Below are positions 2,468-20,088 of a stretch of 20,122 nt of DNA, piece after piece. Made by a program: the position numbers and the translations under genes. Source of the stretch: a virus. The notes under the pieces were generated by a model. The model was not told where the DNA came from. It saw nothing but the letters and a program-made list of their open reading frames with translations, and did no database searches. How positions within the stretch are numbered: position 1 is the stretch's first letter; each line of letters opens with the position of its first letter. The stretch spans positions 1 through 20,122 of the IMG/VR virus record IMGVR_UViG_3300017971_000876. The stretch is one strand, 5' to 3'.

Positions 2468-3664
2468 TTAAATGGTTGATAAACTATGTATGTTAGTTCC
2501 CGACGTGCCGAAAAGGGTAACCTTTCGACCGTCGCTAGATATCTGTTTTATGCTTCCGGTGCCTCCTGTGATGTCTATACCGAATACATCGGGTACCCCC
2601 CAAGTCTCGCCGTCGTCTAAAGACACTAATAGCGTCTCCGTAGCGCCCGCTGAAGACACGATCCAGCTAACTAGTACGACAGCCCACATATTACCCCCTA
2701 GATAACGTACTTCACGAAGGTCGTTTGTGGGGGTAGATAACCCTTTGAAATCTACAGTTGACTGTGTCCAAGTAGTGCCTAGGTCGTCGCTGTACCACAG
2801 TTCGTCCCCCGCGTCTCCGCATACAATTAACCGCCCGGATTCTCGATGGTAGTCCATACCGAAACCCCTAGTACCTCCGATGGCCGAAGATATATCCGTA
2901 TTAGACCACGTATCGCCGTCGTCTGTGCTAATGCTTAATGTAGTCGTAGGACCGCTCGAATCCGAAAACAAGGCTAGCCACGTATTAGAGCTCCCTGTAT
3001 AGACCAAATCCCACAGCGTGTCGCTACTCCCAGCTGGGATGGGGTCGGTAGTAGCTGCGGCCCAAGAACCTGCTACGCCAGAGGAGGCTATGCGAGTGTT
3101 AATGGTTCCCGAAGAATTACGCATTAAGATAAGAAAGTCGGAGTCTGGGTATTTAGTAGCAACTCTTTGTATGTTACCAGCCCCCCCGATAGTGGCGCTA
3201 GCTACAGTGGTCCAAGCGGTGATTCCTGCGTCAGCACTATAGTTCAGGTCTTGGTTACTGTTTACCACAGCGATATAGTTACTAGTATCTATAGCTAGTT
3301 TTACGTCGCACGCAGCGGACAGCGCGTTGCCTGCCGCCCACGTCCAACCGTCGGTACTGTAATAGGTTGCCGTAGACACCGAATTAGTTCCTAGCCAATA
3401 GCCCACGCTAGGGTTGAATACACCGAATTCCCCAGCGGATATATCTGTCCCTTTTCGCCAGTTGTTTAAAACCGTTGCCCCGGCTTTCTGTTGCCACTGG
3501 TATGTTAGATTATGTAGCCAATTCATCCACCTAGCTGGGGGGACATCGTCTATTTGCCAGCCTGTATCTTTGACCCCTTCGGCGGGTTCTAGCGTCCTTC
3601 CCGAATCTGTCGCCCAGCGCCCAAATTGAGTAGGGAAATTTAGTTCTATATTCATTCCGCCCAT
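2468..3664 (-). CDS. Tail fibre/tailspike-like protein with sialidase-type Asp-box propeller
   Basis: The product is 398 residues. The N-terminus (about 1-75) contains VPPARWMNWLHNLTYQWQ, a type of sequence common at the virion-attachment end of phage fibres. The rest carries at least five Asp-box-like motifs (S-x-D-x-G-x-T-W): residues 103-109 STDGWTW, 143-151 SADAGITAW, 246-253 STDDGDTW, 292-299 SDDLGTTW and 348-355 SLDDGETW. Asp boxes mark blades of sialidase/BNR beta-propellers. I do not see the arginine triad and FRIP motif of true sialidases, so binding rather than hydrolysis is more likely. GAGGT lies 6 bases before the ATG at 3664; a second ATG at 3655 is less well placed. It follows the DUF2612/gpI-like gene, as fibres usually do. 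Confidence 0.8.
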   Translation of the reverse strand: MGGMNIELNFPTQFGRWATDSGRTLEPAEGVKDTGWQIDDVPPARWMNWLHNLTYQWQQKAGATVLNNWRKGTDISAGEFGVFNPSVGYWLGTNSVSTATYYSTDGWTWAAGNALSAACDVKLAIDTSNYIAVVNSNQDLNYSADAGITAWTTVASATIGGAGNIQRVATKYPDSDFLILMRNSSGTINTRIASSGVAGSWAAATTDPIPAGSSDTLWDLVYTGSSNTWLALFSDSSGPTTTLSISTDDGDTWSNTDISSAIGGTRGFGMDYHRESGRLIVCGDAGDELWYSDDLGTTWTQSTVDFKGLSTPTNDLREVRYLGGNMWAVVLVSWIVSSAGATETLLVSLDDGETWGVPDVFGIDITGGTGSIKQISSDGRKVTLFGTSGTNIHSLSTI

Positions 3665-15633: not shown

Positions 15634-16602
15634 CTACAGGACGTTATTGAAAAACACGCCGAGGTCAGAAGCTACAAGCTTCTGATCGAAGTACATTTCA
15701 CCTTCGACCCTATCGGAAGACAAGTGCTCCATTCGGAACTTCTTCATCCTCTGCCCTTGCGCGCCTGCGCCAAGATAGCCGGTCCAGTTGAACACGTAAC
15801 CTGCGGAAGGAAGCAGGATACTCGGTCTAGGAGCGGAGTAGCACAGGAATGCATCATCTGTGAAAAGGTCCGCCATAACAGCAGTAGCACCTTCGTTAGC
15901 TGTGTTGTTCACAGCGTCAGCCACGAGCACGCGCCCGCCGCCGTTAGGGAACAACACAGACGCCAAGAGATCCATAGTGACGATCTTGTCTCTGGTGTAC
16001 GCGATACGGTCCAAAAAGTCGGATGCGTCCTGAAGAGCTGTCCAAACGTCAGAAGCAAGCACTAAAGTGTTAGGCCAAAAGCCCGTCTTGGTATGCATAG
16101 CTTTCATTTGAACACGCATATCTTTAATAGGAGTTCCTGCGGCCACGTTCCACTTGGTTCCCGGAACGATATCTGCTCCTGTGCTAGAACCGGTCCATAC
16201 ATTAGTGGTGAAGTACTTAGCAGCCCACAGTTTTTCTCTTTTGAGAACCAAGTCTCTCATTACGAATTCTGTGGCGTCTCTATCTGCGTCCAGGGGGGTA
16301 TCGGTGTTAGCCCTTACTTCGTCATCTACGTCCTTGTGAAGAGCGTATCTCTTGCAAGAGTAGCTATCCGATTCGATATTATACCCAGACCCTGCGGACT
16401 CGGAAGCCGGCGCACGCTCTTGGGTGTCAGTGCGAAACCATTGATCCTTTGGATACTTGAAATAGTAATCACTCTTCTTTCGCACGGGGACCATGGGAAA
16501 AACCTTATCCGCGACGAATCCACCCATGTCCTGGAGATAAGCCACGGAGATGTTAGTTAGAGGTGCATTAATATGCACATCACCTGCGGTCGGTTGAGGC
16601 AT
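15634..16602 (-). CDS. Major capsid protein
   Basis: The product is 322 residues. The N-terminus (PLTNISVAYLQDMGGFVADK; VFPMVPVRKKSDYYFKYP) and the middle (DADRDATEFVMRDLVLKREK; GFWPNTLVLASDVWTALQDA) follow a family of major capsid proteins with the HK97 fold, ending in a P-domain/A-domain type region (CYSAPRPSILLPSAGYVFNW). No long N-terminal delta domain is present, which fits a separate scaffold protein. It follows the decoration gene and has AAAGGAG 7 bases before its ATG. A short inverted repeat lies near the 3' end. Confidence 0.9.
   Translation of the reverse strand: MPQPTAGDVHINAPLTNISVAYLQDMGGFVADKVFPMVPVRKKSDYYFKYPKDQWFRTDTQERAPASESAGSGYNIESDSYSCKRYALHKDVDDEVRANTDTPLDADRDATEFVMRDLVLKREKLWAAKYFTTNVWTGSSTGADIVPGTKWNVAAGTPIKDMRVQMKAMHTKTGFWPNTLVLASDVWTALQDASDFLDRIAYTRDKIVTMDLLASVLFPNGGGRVLVADAVNNTANEGATAVMADLFTDDAFLCYSAPRPSILLPSAGYVFNWTGYLGAGAQGQRMKKFRMEHLSSDRVEGEMYFDQKLVASDLGVFFNNVL
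15665..15685 (-). other. Inverted repeat near the 3' end of the capsid gene
   Basis: A perfect 8-base stem (TCAGAAGC / GCTTCTGA) with a 5-base loop lies inside the last codons of the capsid gene. On the minus strand the following bases include TTTTT about 10 bases later, which is too distant for a standard terminator. It may stabilise an upstream mRNA end or be chance. Confidence 0.4.
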
Positions 16603-16616: not shown

Positions 16617-17609
16617 CTATAGTTTGCTCTTAGTATCTAGAGATACCGCGATAAGTTCGCCGCTAGCACTTGCGGCTTCCAATGCTCTGCCACTGATATA
16701 CGAGTTAGACGCAGTACCCGTAAGCACCTCGACAGACAACCCGAGGGGCGTCAACGCGTTGCCGGATTTAAAATCAAGCTCGGAGGTTACGCCAGTAGTG
16801 GGGCTAGAAATAACAGGCGTACCACTAGTGATATCCACGGTAGCCGTTGAGTCTGCTTCGATAACAGTCTTAACTTCGGCTGCGGTAACTGCGTTAATAT
16901 CCGCAGCGTCGCCGGTGCCGGCTACAGGAGCCGCAAAGGTAAGGCCGGAAGTCCCCGCGGCGGCGGCGATGGCAAAGCCCGAGCCCGCGCCGTCGGTAGA
17001 GATTTTAACCTGACCACCTACGTCCTCAGCGAAACCGCCGAGAAGCTGATCGTTGATCCCTTCGGCAACTAGAAGAGCGGTAGTAGTGGTTTTGTTAAAA
17101 GTAATAGTCTGTACTACTCCGTCATACTCTCCACCTGTGATGGTGATAGTAAACGCCAAGGTGTCTTGATCAGCAACCGGATAAGACGTAGTATCTGTGA
17201 TACTGGCCTGTGCCGCATCCCAAGTACAAGTTGCGTTACCTACATTATCGACATCCACAACGATAGTATCCGCGGGATTCAGGTTATAAGTAGGCGCGCT
17301 ACAAGTCTTAGACGCTGCAGTGGCAGAACTAGCGGCTGTGACTGCGAGTCCCGAAGCGTTACTCATCACAGACGCGCCTTTAGCGACAGCTGCGCCGGCT
17401 TTTACCTTAGACACACCAGCGGAAGCCACAGCGGCGGCTTCGCCTGAAGCGCTAGGTTTGTTTTGCAGTACCCCGTCACATAGGGCTCCGTTACTCGAAT
17501 TGAGTGCTACGCCCCCGGAACCGATAGTAACAAATTTGTACTGATCGGAACTAAGATCGCCAGAAGCGGTCTGGCCGGGAATAATGGTTTGTGCTCCTTC
17601 ATAAGCCAT
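16617..17609 (-). CDS. Capsid decoration/cement protein with large inserted domain
   Basis: The product is 330 residues. Residues 1-95 (MAYEGAQTIIPGQTASGDLS; CDGVLQNKPSASGEAAAVAS; GVSKVKAGAAVAKGASVMSN) and 302-325 (NSYISGRALEAASASGELIA) together match a capsid cement protein that is normally about 110-130 residues. Between them, residues 97-300 are an insertion with strand-rich segments such as LAFTITITGGEYDGVVQTIT and TADEV-type TAAEVKTVIEADSTATVDIT. The insert has two related parts (about 150-230 and 236-292). The protein probably binds the capsid outer surface. Strong AAGGAGGT precedes the ATG by 6 bases, fitting high copy number. Confidence 0.82.
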   Translation of the reverse strand: MAYEGAQTIIPGQTASGDLSSDQYKFVTIGSGGVALNSSNGALCDGVLQNKPSASGEAAAVASAGVSKVKAGAAVAKGASVMSNASGLAVTAASSATAASKTCSAPTYNLNPADTIVVDVDNVGNATCTWDAAQASITDTTSYPVADQDTLAFTITITGGEYDGVVQTITFNKTTTTALLVAEGINDQLLGGFAEDVGGQVKISTDGAGSGFAIAAAAGTSGLTFAAPVAGTGDAADINAVTAAEVKTVIEADSTATVDITSGTPVISSPTTGVTSELDFKSGNALTPLGLSVEVLTGTASNSYISGRALEAASASGELIAVSLDTKSKL

Positions 17610-17615
17610 AATTTT

Positions 17616-17623
17616 ACCTCCTT
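17616..17623 (-). promoter_or_regulatory. Strong ribosome binding site of the decoration gene
   Basis: AAGGAGGT is 6 bases upstream of the ATG at 17609 and overlaps the stop codon of the scaffold-like gene. Confidence 0.85.
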
Positions 17624-18527
17624 ATTTCCCTGCCTGCGCGGGGTGCTCGTCCAAATACGCATCATAGAGGCTAGGATCCTCGTTAAGCGCCTTGGCGATG
17701 GCTTGCTCTTTAGTCAAAGGCTTCTCGGATTTCTCAACGTATTTAGCCGCGGCTTTTGTAAGTTTATCCATAGCCGAACCGGTATTAACTTCGCCGCGTC
17801 CGCCTAGCTCGTTAAACATTACGCTCTTCTTGATAGCCGCCGCCGAGTCTTTCATGATCGCAAACTGGGCCTCTGCCATGTCTTTGTCTTTGTCGGCAAG
17901 GCTTTTAAACATGGCGCCTAGTTCTTCTGAGGACTTACCGGGGATACCCGACAATTCTTCTTTGGCCTTTGTTACCCAAGACTCAAGTTCTCTGAGGTCT
18001 TGTGCTTCTTTGAGCGCCTTAGCTACTGCTTCGTGCTTCTCTTTCATGGCGGCCATCTCTTCGTCATGCGCCTTTGTGATTTCGTCAAATTGCTTCTTGA
18101 CTTCCTCGGGCATACCTTCGAGAGATTTCTTCATTTTCATCTCCTCTTCTTCGTCCTCTTCTTCTTCGTCAAGAGGCATAGCTTTCTTCTCCTCTCCTTT
18201 CGCTTTATTCACGGGCTCTTCATATCCCGCGATGCCTGCGATAGTGGAAAGAGATTCAGTGGTTAGTTTGTCCTTAAAGGATTCCGCAAGTCGAAGCATC
18301 CCCTTTAGTACAGGGACGGCGTCGGCGTCTAGCTCTGCTTTTTCTACAAACTCGGCTAGTTTCGCTTCGCCTTCAACCTCGGTATCCAGAACAGCTTTAA
18401 TGATTTCTTCGTTCATATTGCTCTCCTGTTTAACTATAGGGAAGCGCTTCTTTTTATTGGCTCCCTTGTCAACTATAGACACTTCGTTAACTTCGAAGTT
18501 TTTTAATTCTGTCAATTGTTTAGTCAT
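17622..18527 (-). CDS. Scaffold-like acidic coiled-coil head protein
   Basis: From the ATG at 18527 the product is 301 residues. Residues 12-33, FEVNEVSIVDKGANKKKRFP onward, match the segment normally seen at the end of S78-type prohead proteases. The rest is highly charged and helical: an acidic run at 120-129 (PLDEEEEDEEEEM), then coiled-coil sequence to about 235 (KAHDEEMAAMKEKHEAVAKA). Composition and a place just before decoration and capsid genes indicate an internal scaffold that is cleaved or expelled during maturation. The start is chosen because it overlaps the preceding TGA as ATGA and has AAGAG upstream; a TTG at 18560 would extend it by 11 residues without a ribosome site. Confidence 0.8.
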   Translation of the reverse strand: MTKQLTELKNFEVNEVSIVDKGANKKKRFPIVKQESNMNEEIIKAVLDTEVEGEAKLAEFVEKAELDADAVPVLKGMLRLAESFKDKLTTESLSTIAGIAGYEEPVNKAKGEEKKAMPLDEEEEDEEEEMKMKKSLEGMPEEVKKQFDEITKAHDEEMAAMKEKHEAVAKALKEAQDLRELESWVTKAKEELSGIPGKSSEELGAMFKSLADKDKDMAEAQFAIMKDSAAAIKKSVMFNELGGRGEVNTGSAMDKLTKAAAKYVEKSEKPLTKEQAIAKALNEDPSLYDAYLDEHPAQAGK

Positions 18528-18865
18528 CCAATTTCTCTTTTGCAAATGGGGCAAGAACAATATAATCGGGCCATGGTCTCATTTAAAACGGTATTTATAG
18601 ACCAATAGGTGGTATAGAATTGCATCGAGTCACAATAGTCATCTACTGAACAATCGTTAAAAACCATAACACATTTGCTTTTATCAATTTCTACGGTTGC
18701 TCTTCTTGTGCCTACTTCGAAGTGTGCCACTATGCCGTCCGAATAAGATTCAGATGTCGGGGTGATTTCATTTGCCTCCAACCAATCCAAAAACACACAA
18801 AGTATTTCTTCTCTTGTCATAACTTTGTTTTTCATTTGCGCCGCTATTCCTATACAATCCAACAT
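18524..18865 (-). CDS. Small Cys-rich protein between protease and scaffold, unknown function
   Basis: Starting at the ATG at 18865, which overlaps the protease stop as TAATG, the product is 113 residues. The middle part (MTREEILCVFLDWLEANEIT; GIVAHFEVGTRRATVEIDKS) looks like a small alpha/beta domain. Cysteines at 3, 22, 64, 71 and 77 and a C-terminal CSCPIC (104-109) make it much richer in Cys than its neighbours, and CxCxxC could bind zinc. A longer frame reaches 18979 but overlaps the protease by more than 100 bases; a shorter start is at 18835. I do not recognise the family. Its place inside the head operon suggests a maturation or moron role, unproven. Confidence 0.65.
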   Translation of the reverse strand: MLDCIGIAAQMKNKVMTREEILCVFLDWLEANEITPTSESYSDGIVAHFEVGTRRATVEIDKSKCVMVFNDCSVDDYCDSMQFYTTYWSINTVLNETMARLYCSCPICKREIG

Positions 18866-20088
18866 TAATCGTCGTCTACTGACAAAGAGTCGCAGGTAGT
18901 CCACGTGATTGTCGGGTTTGGATCTGCTGTAGAATCTGTGTTTAGATATCCGTTTAAAACATCTGGAGAAACCTGCCAAATAGCTTTTTCTATGTTCTCT
19001 CCCATATTCGATTTCTCAACTAGCTCCACAAACGTCACTTTGGGCATCTCCGCTTTATTAAGAGGTCTCCGTACGCCGAAACCGCCCGGGCTAAACGCTG
19101 TTACTTTTCCGGATTTGAAAAGCTCCCACTCTTTTTCGCCTAGCTCGACGCCCATGATCCAGCTACCAGAATGCACAAAATCGTCACCGAATTTGCGGCG
19201 ACTTACTTTGTGTTCTTCTCCGTTCAACGCTTTTAGGTAATCTTCTCGACTTGGGTATTGCTCAACCCAGCTCTCTACTACTTTGGCGTCTGCTTTTTTG
19301 ACGTGCTGTAGACCAATAACACGCGAGGATTGTAAGTAGTTATGAGCCATCTTTTCCACTTCATCCGGCGGCATCCAATCGTTATGCGCGTCGGCTTGTG
19401 CTCCATTAGCACCATACGGGTCAACAACAACACCGTAAACAATGCGCTTCATAGGCGCTTCTTTTGATATTTTGGATGTTAGTTCTTCGCCTGTGGAATC
19501 GGCTTTATACTCGACAATCGGCTTATTACTCGCCTGTCTGTCATTATAATAACACTTTTTATCATATTTGTCTAGTAAATTCGACCATATAGCGTTTAAT
19601 TTACGATCTACTTCCCCGGAGTCTCCATATTTGCGCACAGCTTCGGGGTGAGGCAGACTATGATCCGCCCTTATGCCTAGGTTCTTCTTTGACGCTTTGC
19701 CGAGGGCGATCACTAGACAGGGGTTAATGTCTTCTAGTTCGTCTACGTCTTTCGTAATATGTACGTCTTCTCGGTCTATTCCTAAAGGGTCTAGATACAG
19801 TTCTTTAAATATGTCCCCCGTCGCTCCTATGAGTGCTTCATTGCGGGCTTTCTCTACAGGAGACAACTCAGACACCACGAAGGAGATTAACGCTTTGGAT
19901 ACGCTCTTCTCTTCGTCGCAACGCTTAGACTCTAGTTCTATCTTTCTCTGTTTTGCTCTATTAGCCTTTGCCTTGCCTCCCGATTTTGCCCTGGCTGCTT
20001 TGACTAAGCTAGCATGTAGCCATTTAGGCAGGTACTCTTTGGACATAGCTAACATTTCTTCCAGGAATTCTCTCGAATGGGTTGTCAT
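18865..20088 (-). CDS. XkdF-type prohead serine protease with UDG-like N-terminal domain
   Basis: The product is 407 residues. Residues 1-60 are basic and helical. Residues about 66-176 look like a uracil-DNA-glycosylase superfamily domain: VVSELSPVEKARNEALIGAT in the place of motif A, NPCLVIALGKASKKNLG (122-138), and SLPHPEAVRKYGDSGEV (144-160) with the HP of the second motif. The segment between is unusually short. Residues 213-345 are the XkdF-like protease (Peptidase_S78_2 type): KRIVYGVVVDPYG, VIGLQHVKK with candidate His262, HSGSWIMGVEL with candidate Ser309, and TAFSPGGFG. It would cleave scaffold and capsid precursors. AAGGAG precedes the ATG. The protease call is firm; the glycosylase-like call is from pattern recall and activity is unlikely to be judged without a structure. 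Confidence 0.8.
   Translation of the reverse strand: MTTHSREFLEEMLAMSKEYLPKWLHASLVKAARAKSGGKAKANRAKQRKIELESKRCDEEKSVSKALISFVVSELSPVEKARNEALIGATGDIFKELYLDPLGIDREDVHITKDVDELEDINPCLVIALGKASKKNLGIRADHSLPHPEAVRKYGDSGEVDRKLNAIWSNLLDKYDKKCYYNDRQASNKPIVEYKADSTGEELTSKISKEAPMKRIVYGVVVDPYGANGAQADAHNDWMPPDEVEKMAHNYLQSSRVIGLQHVKKADAKVVESWVEQYPSREDYLKALNGEEHKVSRRKFGDDFVHSGSWIMGVELGEKEWELFKSGKVTAFSPGGFGVRRPLNKAEMPKVTFVELVEKSNMGENIEKAIWQVSPDVLNGYLNTDSTADPNPTITWTTCDSLSVDDD

Follow-up and report, generated by a model that had tools for sequence, protein, structure and literature searches.

A 20,122-nt stretch of DNA from an uncultured tailed virus (positions 1 to 20,122 of IMG/VR record IMGVR_UViG_3300017971_000876; hereafter, the window) encodes a 407-aa protein, P0001, in which an XkdF-type (Peptidase_S78_2) head-maturation protease is preceded by a domain with the fold of uracil-DNA glycosylases (UDGs). 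Computational analysis established the fold, the homology to UDGs, the recurrence of the fusion and, for the window protein, a position in a head operon. The UDG-fold module is most likely a head-located DNA-binding module and not an active glycosylase. With confidence that is about evenly balanced, P0001 is seen here as a head-maturation protease with a UDG-superfamily N-terminus derived from family-4-like enzymes, which probably binds DNA without cutting bases and may be carried in the head.

Gene layout and neighbourhood

The open reading frame picked out in an earlier, sequence-only reading of the window holds as a minus-strand gene. From its N-terminus, P0001 consists of a helical region, the UDG-fold domain, a linker and the protease (Table 1). 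An identical protein is encoded by a second contig, L002, on which the upstream genes are visible. The helical region is also present in relatives, two of which give a weak Pfam ChaB match, and the linker may be a zone of self-cleavage. The protease is matched by Pfam S78_2 with E = 3.4e-17 (63.1 bits against a cut-off of 24), and its residues H249, H262 and S333 (FSPGG), which are invariant or nearly so across the family, probably have a catalytic-type role. A 151-aa ORF (window 18524-18979) overlaps the protease gene at its 3' end; from an internal Met this ORF would give a protein of about 103 aa with a C-terminal CSCPIC and no significant Pfam match.

Table 1. Features of the window, and of related contigs where a contig is named.
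Feature	Location	Strand	Evidence or remark
Fusion gene, 407 aa (P0001)	18865..20088	-	ORF list; Pfam S78_2; AF2 model; UDG fold
Helical N-terminal region, aa 1-60	19909..20088	-	SxExLxxxLxxAKxxLPGW...GGxA type
UDG-fold domain, aa 64-178	19555..19899	-	VIA Z 11.6; HMM E 1.4e-30; pLDDT ~95
Motif-1 region FVVSELSPVEKARNEALIGA, aa 70-89	19822..19881	-	Canonical GEAPG...PF replaced
Missing-segment site, aa 113-116	19741..19752	-	~25 residues of longer relatives absent
ALGKASKKNLG, aa 128-138	19675..19707	-	UDG strand-helix core
Motif-B/intercalation loop PHPEAVRKYGDSGEVDRK, aa 146-163	19600..19653	-	Invariant columns, 63-sequence alignment
Inter-domain linker, aa 180-204	19477..19551	-	pLDDT <50 over 182-199
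Peptidase_S78_2 (PF14550), aa 205-338	19075..19476	-	Pfam
Scaffold-like protein	17622..18560	-	phrog_17741, 3.3e-12; synteny
Cement/decoration-like head protein	16617..17609	-	
Major head protein	15634..16602	-	phrog_1005, E 2.4e-82
Vsr/EDxHD-type (I-Bth0305I-like) endonuclease ORF, 265 aa	L002:1894-2691	-	Antisense inside intein
Polyprotein-type head proteases	L022:1947-6641; L126:3167-6883; L012:7948-12480; L128:2941-6045; L028:6304-9645		
UDG-protease chain with rubrerythrin and rubredoxin-like domains	L055:8213-10330		
UDG-protease chain with 2'-5' RNA ligase-like domain	L013:6511-8496		

Carriers of the fusion share the gene order portal-(MuF)-UDG-protease-scaffold-capsid. Portal and/or MuF homologues precede the fusion gene, scaffold and MCP homologues follow it, and at least one of these is present in 117 of the 119 loci listed. 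The scaffold-like protein in the window starts with EVSIVDKGAN, a segment that resembles the N-terminal portion of phrog_3017, a head-protease family (E = 2.7e-5). The MuF and UDG-protease genes of L002 flank a gene (2733-3011) for a 92-aa protein with an HEIVH metalloprotease-like motif and a weak SprT-like match (E = 0.0066).

Homology and predicted structure of the N-terminal domain

Direct matches between P0001 and UDGs are weak. The UDG region alone gave no significant UDG match in Pfam, the whole protein found no match among PDB sequences (phmmer), and NCBIfam returned sub-threshold matches only, both to family-4 UDGs (E = 0.032 and 0.091). As scans of viral contigs for close relatives recovered the same virus only, relatives were sought instead by a DNA pattern for PHPx6GDxGE[VILMF]xRK, a motif inside the supposed UDG domain and outside the protease. 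The longer relatives carry, in order, FVGASPG...PFVG...YLKPLGL...TNAVP...REPTxxE...VALGxTA...LPHPxAVRRFGDSGEVxRK. They match Pfam UDG with E values down to 2.4e-23, and the UDG domain of one of them matches family-4 UDG and UdgX chains in the PDB (about 1e-10). An HMM from 48 long relatives matches P0001 with 108 bits (E = 1.4e-30), in two blocks with the missing segment between them, while 200 shuffles of P0001 reach at most 3.2 bits against the same HMM. By profile comparison, the N-terminal half of P0001 is homologous to UDGs, the link becoming significant through its relatives.

An AlphaFold2 (AF2) model of P0001, made from a 63-sequence alignment, has a mean pLDDT of 83 overall and of about 95 across aa 65-178, the part predicted to adopt an alpha/beta/alpha fold with a central parallel four-stranded sheet. 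When the model was compared with the PDB using Foldseek, the top 36 matches, including all those at E ≤0.001, were family-4 UDG or UdgX structures. VIA-align placed model residues 64-175 on Thermus UDG 1ui1 over 111 residues (Z = 11.6, rmsd 1.7 Å), with Z values of about 9.4-9.6 for UdgX and 8.4 for TDG and Mug. The sequence-only reading had proposed that a prohead protease here carries a UDG-superfamily domain, and had let this proposal depend on the predicted fold. With UDGs as the top structural matches, at a Z of 11.6, the fold proves to be that of a UDG, and the fold, the HMM of the relatives and the S78_2 match agree on the fusion. The two motifs on which that reading had drawn were also correctly chosen, ALGKASKKNLG representing the ALG strand-helix and LPHPEAVRKYGDSGEV (aa 145-160 of P0001) the HP loop, or motif B.

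Residues lost and kept

In UdgX, E52 belongs to motif A, F65 stacks, N91 and H178 contact uracil, and R184 in the intercalation loop touches the DNA backbone (PMC10359453, PMC10776899). At the positions of UdgX E52, F65, N91, K94, H178 and R184, P0001 has S73, L86, K113 (the segment being missing), none, H147 and K153, respectively. Of the long members of the clade, 47 have a residue at the E52 position, and in each of them it is A, G or S and never Glu; F is found at the F65 position in 22 of 48 and N at the N91 position in 26 of 48, and the K94 position is P in 47 of 48. H178 is H in every one of the 48, R184 is R or K in 39, and across the window protein and 63 relatives the H and P of the HP loop, the H being that of H178, are conserved in 64/64. 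Motif A of the window reads V-S-E-L-S, replacing GE[AG]PG with its catalytic Glu, and motif B reads HPEAVRK, the last position being K and not R as in the HPS...R of family 4.

The short motif spacing remarked on in the sequence-only reading is genuine and is explained by the lack of two pieces. One is a loop that is absent from the whole clade relative to family 4. The other, a segment of about 25 residues (TN-xVP...GRxREPTxxE) that includes the uracil-binding Asn, is lacking in the window copy and in 15 of the 63 other relatives scored. Within the UDG domain, the invariant columns of the 63 sequences are G130, P146, H147, P148, G155, D156, G158, E159, R162 and K163, and the sole invariant column outside it is protease S333. 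The invariant GDxGExxRK is the sequence signature that defines the clade. Since the motif-1 acid, the stacking Phe and the Asn segment are all gone from the window protein, the conventional uracil pocket is gone as well, with the histidine and proline of the DNA loop remaining, and a loss of canonical uracil excision is well supported by these replacements. Some UDG families function without the family-4 motif-1 acid, so the full-length relatives may or may not have lost activity.

Selection and history of the shortened form

In the shortened form, comparison of close pairs gives a median dN/dS of 0.068 for the UDG-like part and of 0.087 for the protease (nine non-independent pairs, all from shortened relatives, the only close copy of the window protein being identical to it). 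The UDG-like domain of the shortened relatives is under strong purifying selection and is not drifting, a constraint that is also compatible with a purely structural domain. The residues kept and lost and the selection results are both consistent with the 'degenerate, DNA-binding or structural' version of the domain considered previously. In a tree built without the missing segment, the window and L107 are placed together among the long, polyprotein-bearing forms and away from the main short group. The best tree needs three changes between long and short, and 0 of 200 bootstraps have one change. The AU test weakly rejected one common clade of short forms (p = 0.036, rising to p = 0.15 without L090), and three is therefore a provisional count of the changes. 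Because family-4 UDGs possess the segment, its loss is the simpler reading.

Recurrence of the fusion and multi-enzyme chains

The pairing of the two domains, for which a count had been suggested, is not a one-off, as the UDG-domain motif pattern was detected in at least 119 viral contigs. S78_2 lies at the C-terminal end of all 56 non-redundant, complete motif carriers among the matches listed, and 44 of these 56 give a Pfam UDG match. Other domains among the 56 carriers are DNA ligase (16), methyltransferase (6) and a LigD phosphoesterase match (3). Some carriers are chains of 1000-1565 aa with added methyltransferase, ATP-dependent DNA ligase and LigD-like domains. The L022 chain, at the upper end of this range, has methyltransferase, ligase, UDG, LigD_N-like and S78_2 domains in that order, and L126 is similar. 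All five giant chains (Table 1) combine a methyltransferase and/or an ATP-dependent DNA ligase with UDG and S78_2, the LigD-like domain being present in some, and the L012 chain has an additional nucleotidyltransferase match. An adenylation-type ligase motif I (KxDG or KxNG) is present in 25 sequences, and the LigD-like HxxHxDLRxE is located between UDG and protease in 21. One further UDG-protease chain bears a domain with the metallo-beta-lactamase fold.

When 84,980 genomes of prokaryote species were searched with the motif pattern, eight contigs were found, one of them a chance match. The remaining seven comprise five methanogen MAGs, one Phycisphaerae and one Bacillota, which suggests that part of the clade has archaeal hosts, with MAG binning errors a possible source of such matches. 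The methanogen contigs (L124, L125, L127, L128 and L129) are Methanotrichaceae/Methanosarcinales MAGs.

Among cultured phages and plasmids, a tblastn search with P0001 matched the protease half only, the UDG region of the window gave no relevant match, and a long-form UDG domain found stand-alone UDGs or polymerases only, by annotation. The UDG-like gene of Moorella phage MTATph1 is of the stand-alone kind. In three cultured viruses and one plasmid with S78_2 that were examined, no UDG domain is annotated before the protease, and no cultured phage with the fusion was seen in these searches. A search of the literature on UDGs with head proteases, XkdF fusions and protease-ligase fusions, in which few subscription journals were covered, found no report of this fusion; within this incomplete coverage, no description was found of the UDG pairing or how often it occurs, of the multi-enzyme chains or of the shrunken form.

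An antisense endonuclease frame in the MuF intein

The MuF gene upstream of the UDG-protease gene (L002:904-2736, plus strand) carries an intein, and the 265-aa endonuclease ORF lies antisense within it in codon-on-codon register, both strands being open. The predicted structure of the ORF product resembles Vsr (Z = 11.1) and, among homing endonucleases, I-Bth0305I (Z = 10.2). Relatives occur in seven other viral contigs (L135 with 100% identity and L136-L141 with 36-44%; L142 is also listed). In these seven contigs the relative is likewise antisense to a long open frame, codon-on-codon, and intein motifs are visible in those opposing frames that are shown far enough. The antisense protein scores higher in alignment than the opposite frame in 28/28 pairs. 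Phage records with a relative of this ORF number 129, of which 62 are from Salmonella, and no report of an antisense endonuclease inside an intein was found in the literature covered.

Proposed role and alternatives

Loss of the pocket residues, combined with invariance of the HP loop and of GDxGExxRK, suggests that the UDG-fold module of P0001 probably binds DNA, or a feature of DNA, without cutting bases. Going by gene order and analogy, the S78_2 half would carry the module into the procapsid together with the scaffold. Digestion of the scaffold, followed by self-cleavage at the disordered linker (aa 180-204), would free the module, which may then remain in the head with the genome and contact packaged or ejected DNA. 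In relatives, chains that end in this protease also bear ligase, methyltransferase, LigD-phosphoesterase-like, 2'-5' RNA ligase-like, rubrerythrin or metallo-beta-lactamase-fold domains, which suggests that the protease acts as a head-entry tag, and our hypothesis is that it targets nucleic-acid enzymes to the head. A bolder extension, possible but doubtful, is that in a lineage of tailed viruses the procapsid takes in polyproteins of as many as 1565 aa, with methyltransferase, ATP-dependent DNA ligase, UDG and LigD-like domains, by means of a self-cleaving protease; there they would be cut loose and then passed into the host with the genome as a DNA-repair kit, of which the window virus would keep a stripped-down, non-cutting UDG module.

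The alternative that survives best, unlikely but deserving serious consideration, is a structural or protein-binding role in which the UDG fold serves to dock the protease to scaffold or portal and does not touch nucleic acid. Such a role would fit the lost catalytic positions, the strong purifying selection that the domain experiences in shortened relatives and the adjoining scaffold and portal genes. The invariant polar residues, however, cluster in or just after the loop that touches DNA in UdgX and family 4, other DNA enzymes are added to the same chain in relatives, and S78_2 proteases without a UDG domain exist in cultured phages. It is distinctly improbable that the module is a still-active glycosylase with rearranged chemistry, D156 and E159 of GDxGExxRK replacing the motif-1 acid: although none of the 63 aligned sequences varies at H147 or at the acidic pair, the fold is intact and more than half of the long forms keep the uracil-binding Asn, the window copy has neither the Asn segment nor an aromatic stacking residue nor the motif-1 acid, and the segment was lost more than once on the best tree in forms that are still constrained. 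Counter-defence, whereby the module would bind uracil or AP sites, or mimic host UDG, and so shield the genome from uracil-directed host systems, seems very unlikely; a late head protease is an odd partner for a counter-defence protein that acts early, an injected module being the exception, even with the UDG-like fold and HP loop retained, and the genes in view are 20 kb of structural ones. A chance resemblance or mis-joined ORF, a suspicion prompted by the missing Pfam UDG match of the window protein alone, is refuted by the two identical contigs, the fusion in 56/56 relatives, the structural match and the HMM score relative to shuffles, and deserves practically no credence.

The recurrent fusion, extended in some contigs by a DNA ligase and a methyltransferase, suggests that viruses of this kind couple DNA-repair parts to their head protein machinery. 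Fusions of head proteases and DNA enzymes have been known as annotation oddities; here one pairing is recurrent, syntenic and selectively constrained, and forms a graded series that runs from chains with intact UDG, ligase and methyltransferase to a UDG fold in shrunken form. The question of which enzymes travel inside phage heads thereby becomes testable, and in the window protein a repair enzyme fold has apparently kept its DNA-facing side and lost its chemistry.

Comparison with known systems

P0001 resembles the XkdF/Peptidase_S78_2 proteases (PF14550, phrog_3017) in its C-terminal domain, conserved H and S, and head-operon position, and differs from the four cultured or plasmid relatives examined in having a UDG-fold N-terminal domain. 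Already annotated fusions of S78_2 with a DNA methyltransferase (phrog_1530) or an RNA ligase (phrog_14859), for example from Rhizobium phages RHph_TM16 and RHph_Y1_11 and from Arthrobacter phages, also join a nucleic-acid enzyme to the same protease, but the enzyme is another one and the UDG domain is not covered by them. UdgX (MsmUdgX, 6ail) has the same fold (Z = 9.4) and provides the best sequence matches of the full-length relatives, whereas P0001 is without H109 (the nucleophile) and E52, and the KRRIH R-loop with its cross-linking His is absent from both the window and its relatives. Family-4 UDGs (UDGa; Thermus 1ui0/1ui1, Sulfolobus 4zbx/4zby and Thermotoga 1vk2) have the fold in common with P0001 over 109-115 residues (Z = 10.3-11.6, rmsd 1.7-2.4 Å), with a similar strand-helix order and motif-B HP loop. 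Four cysteines for a 4Fe-4S cluster are a feature of that family; P0001 has none at the aligned positions and also lacks GE[AG]PG, the uracil-binding Asn and the stacking Phe. Compared with these enzymes, P0001 is shorter by two loops, is fused to a protease and carries the additional invariant GDxGExxRK.
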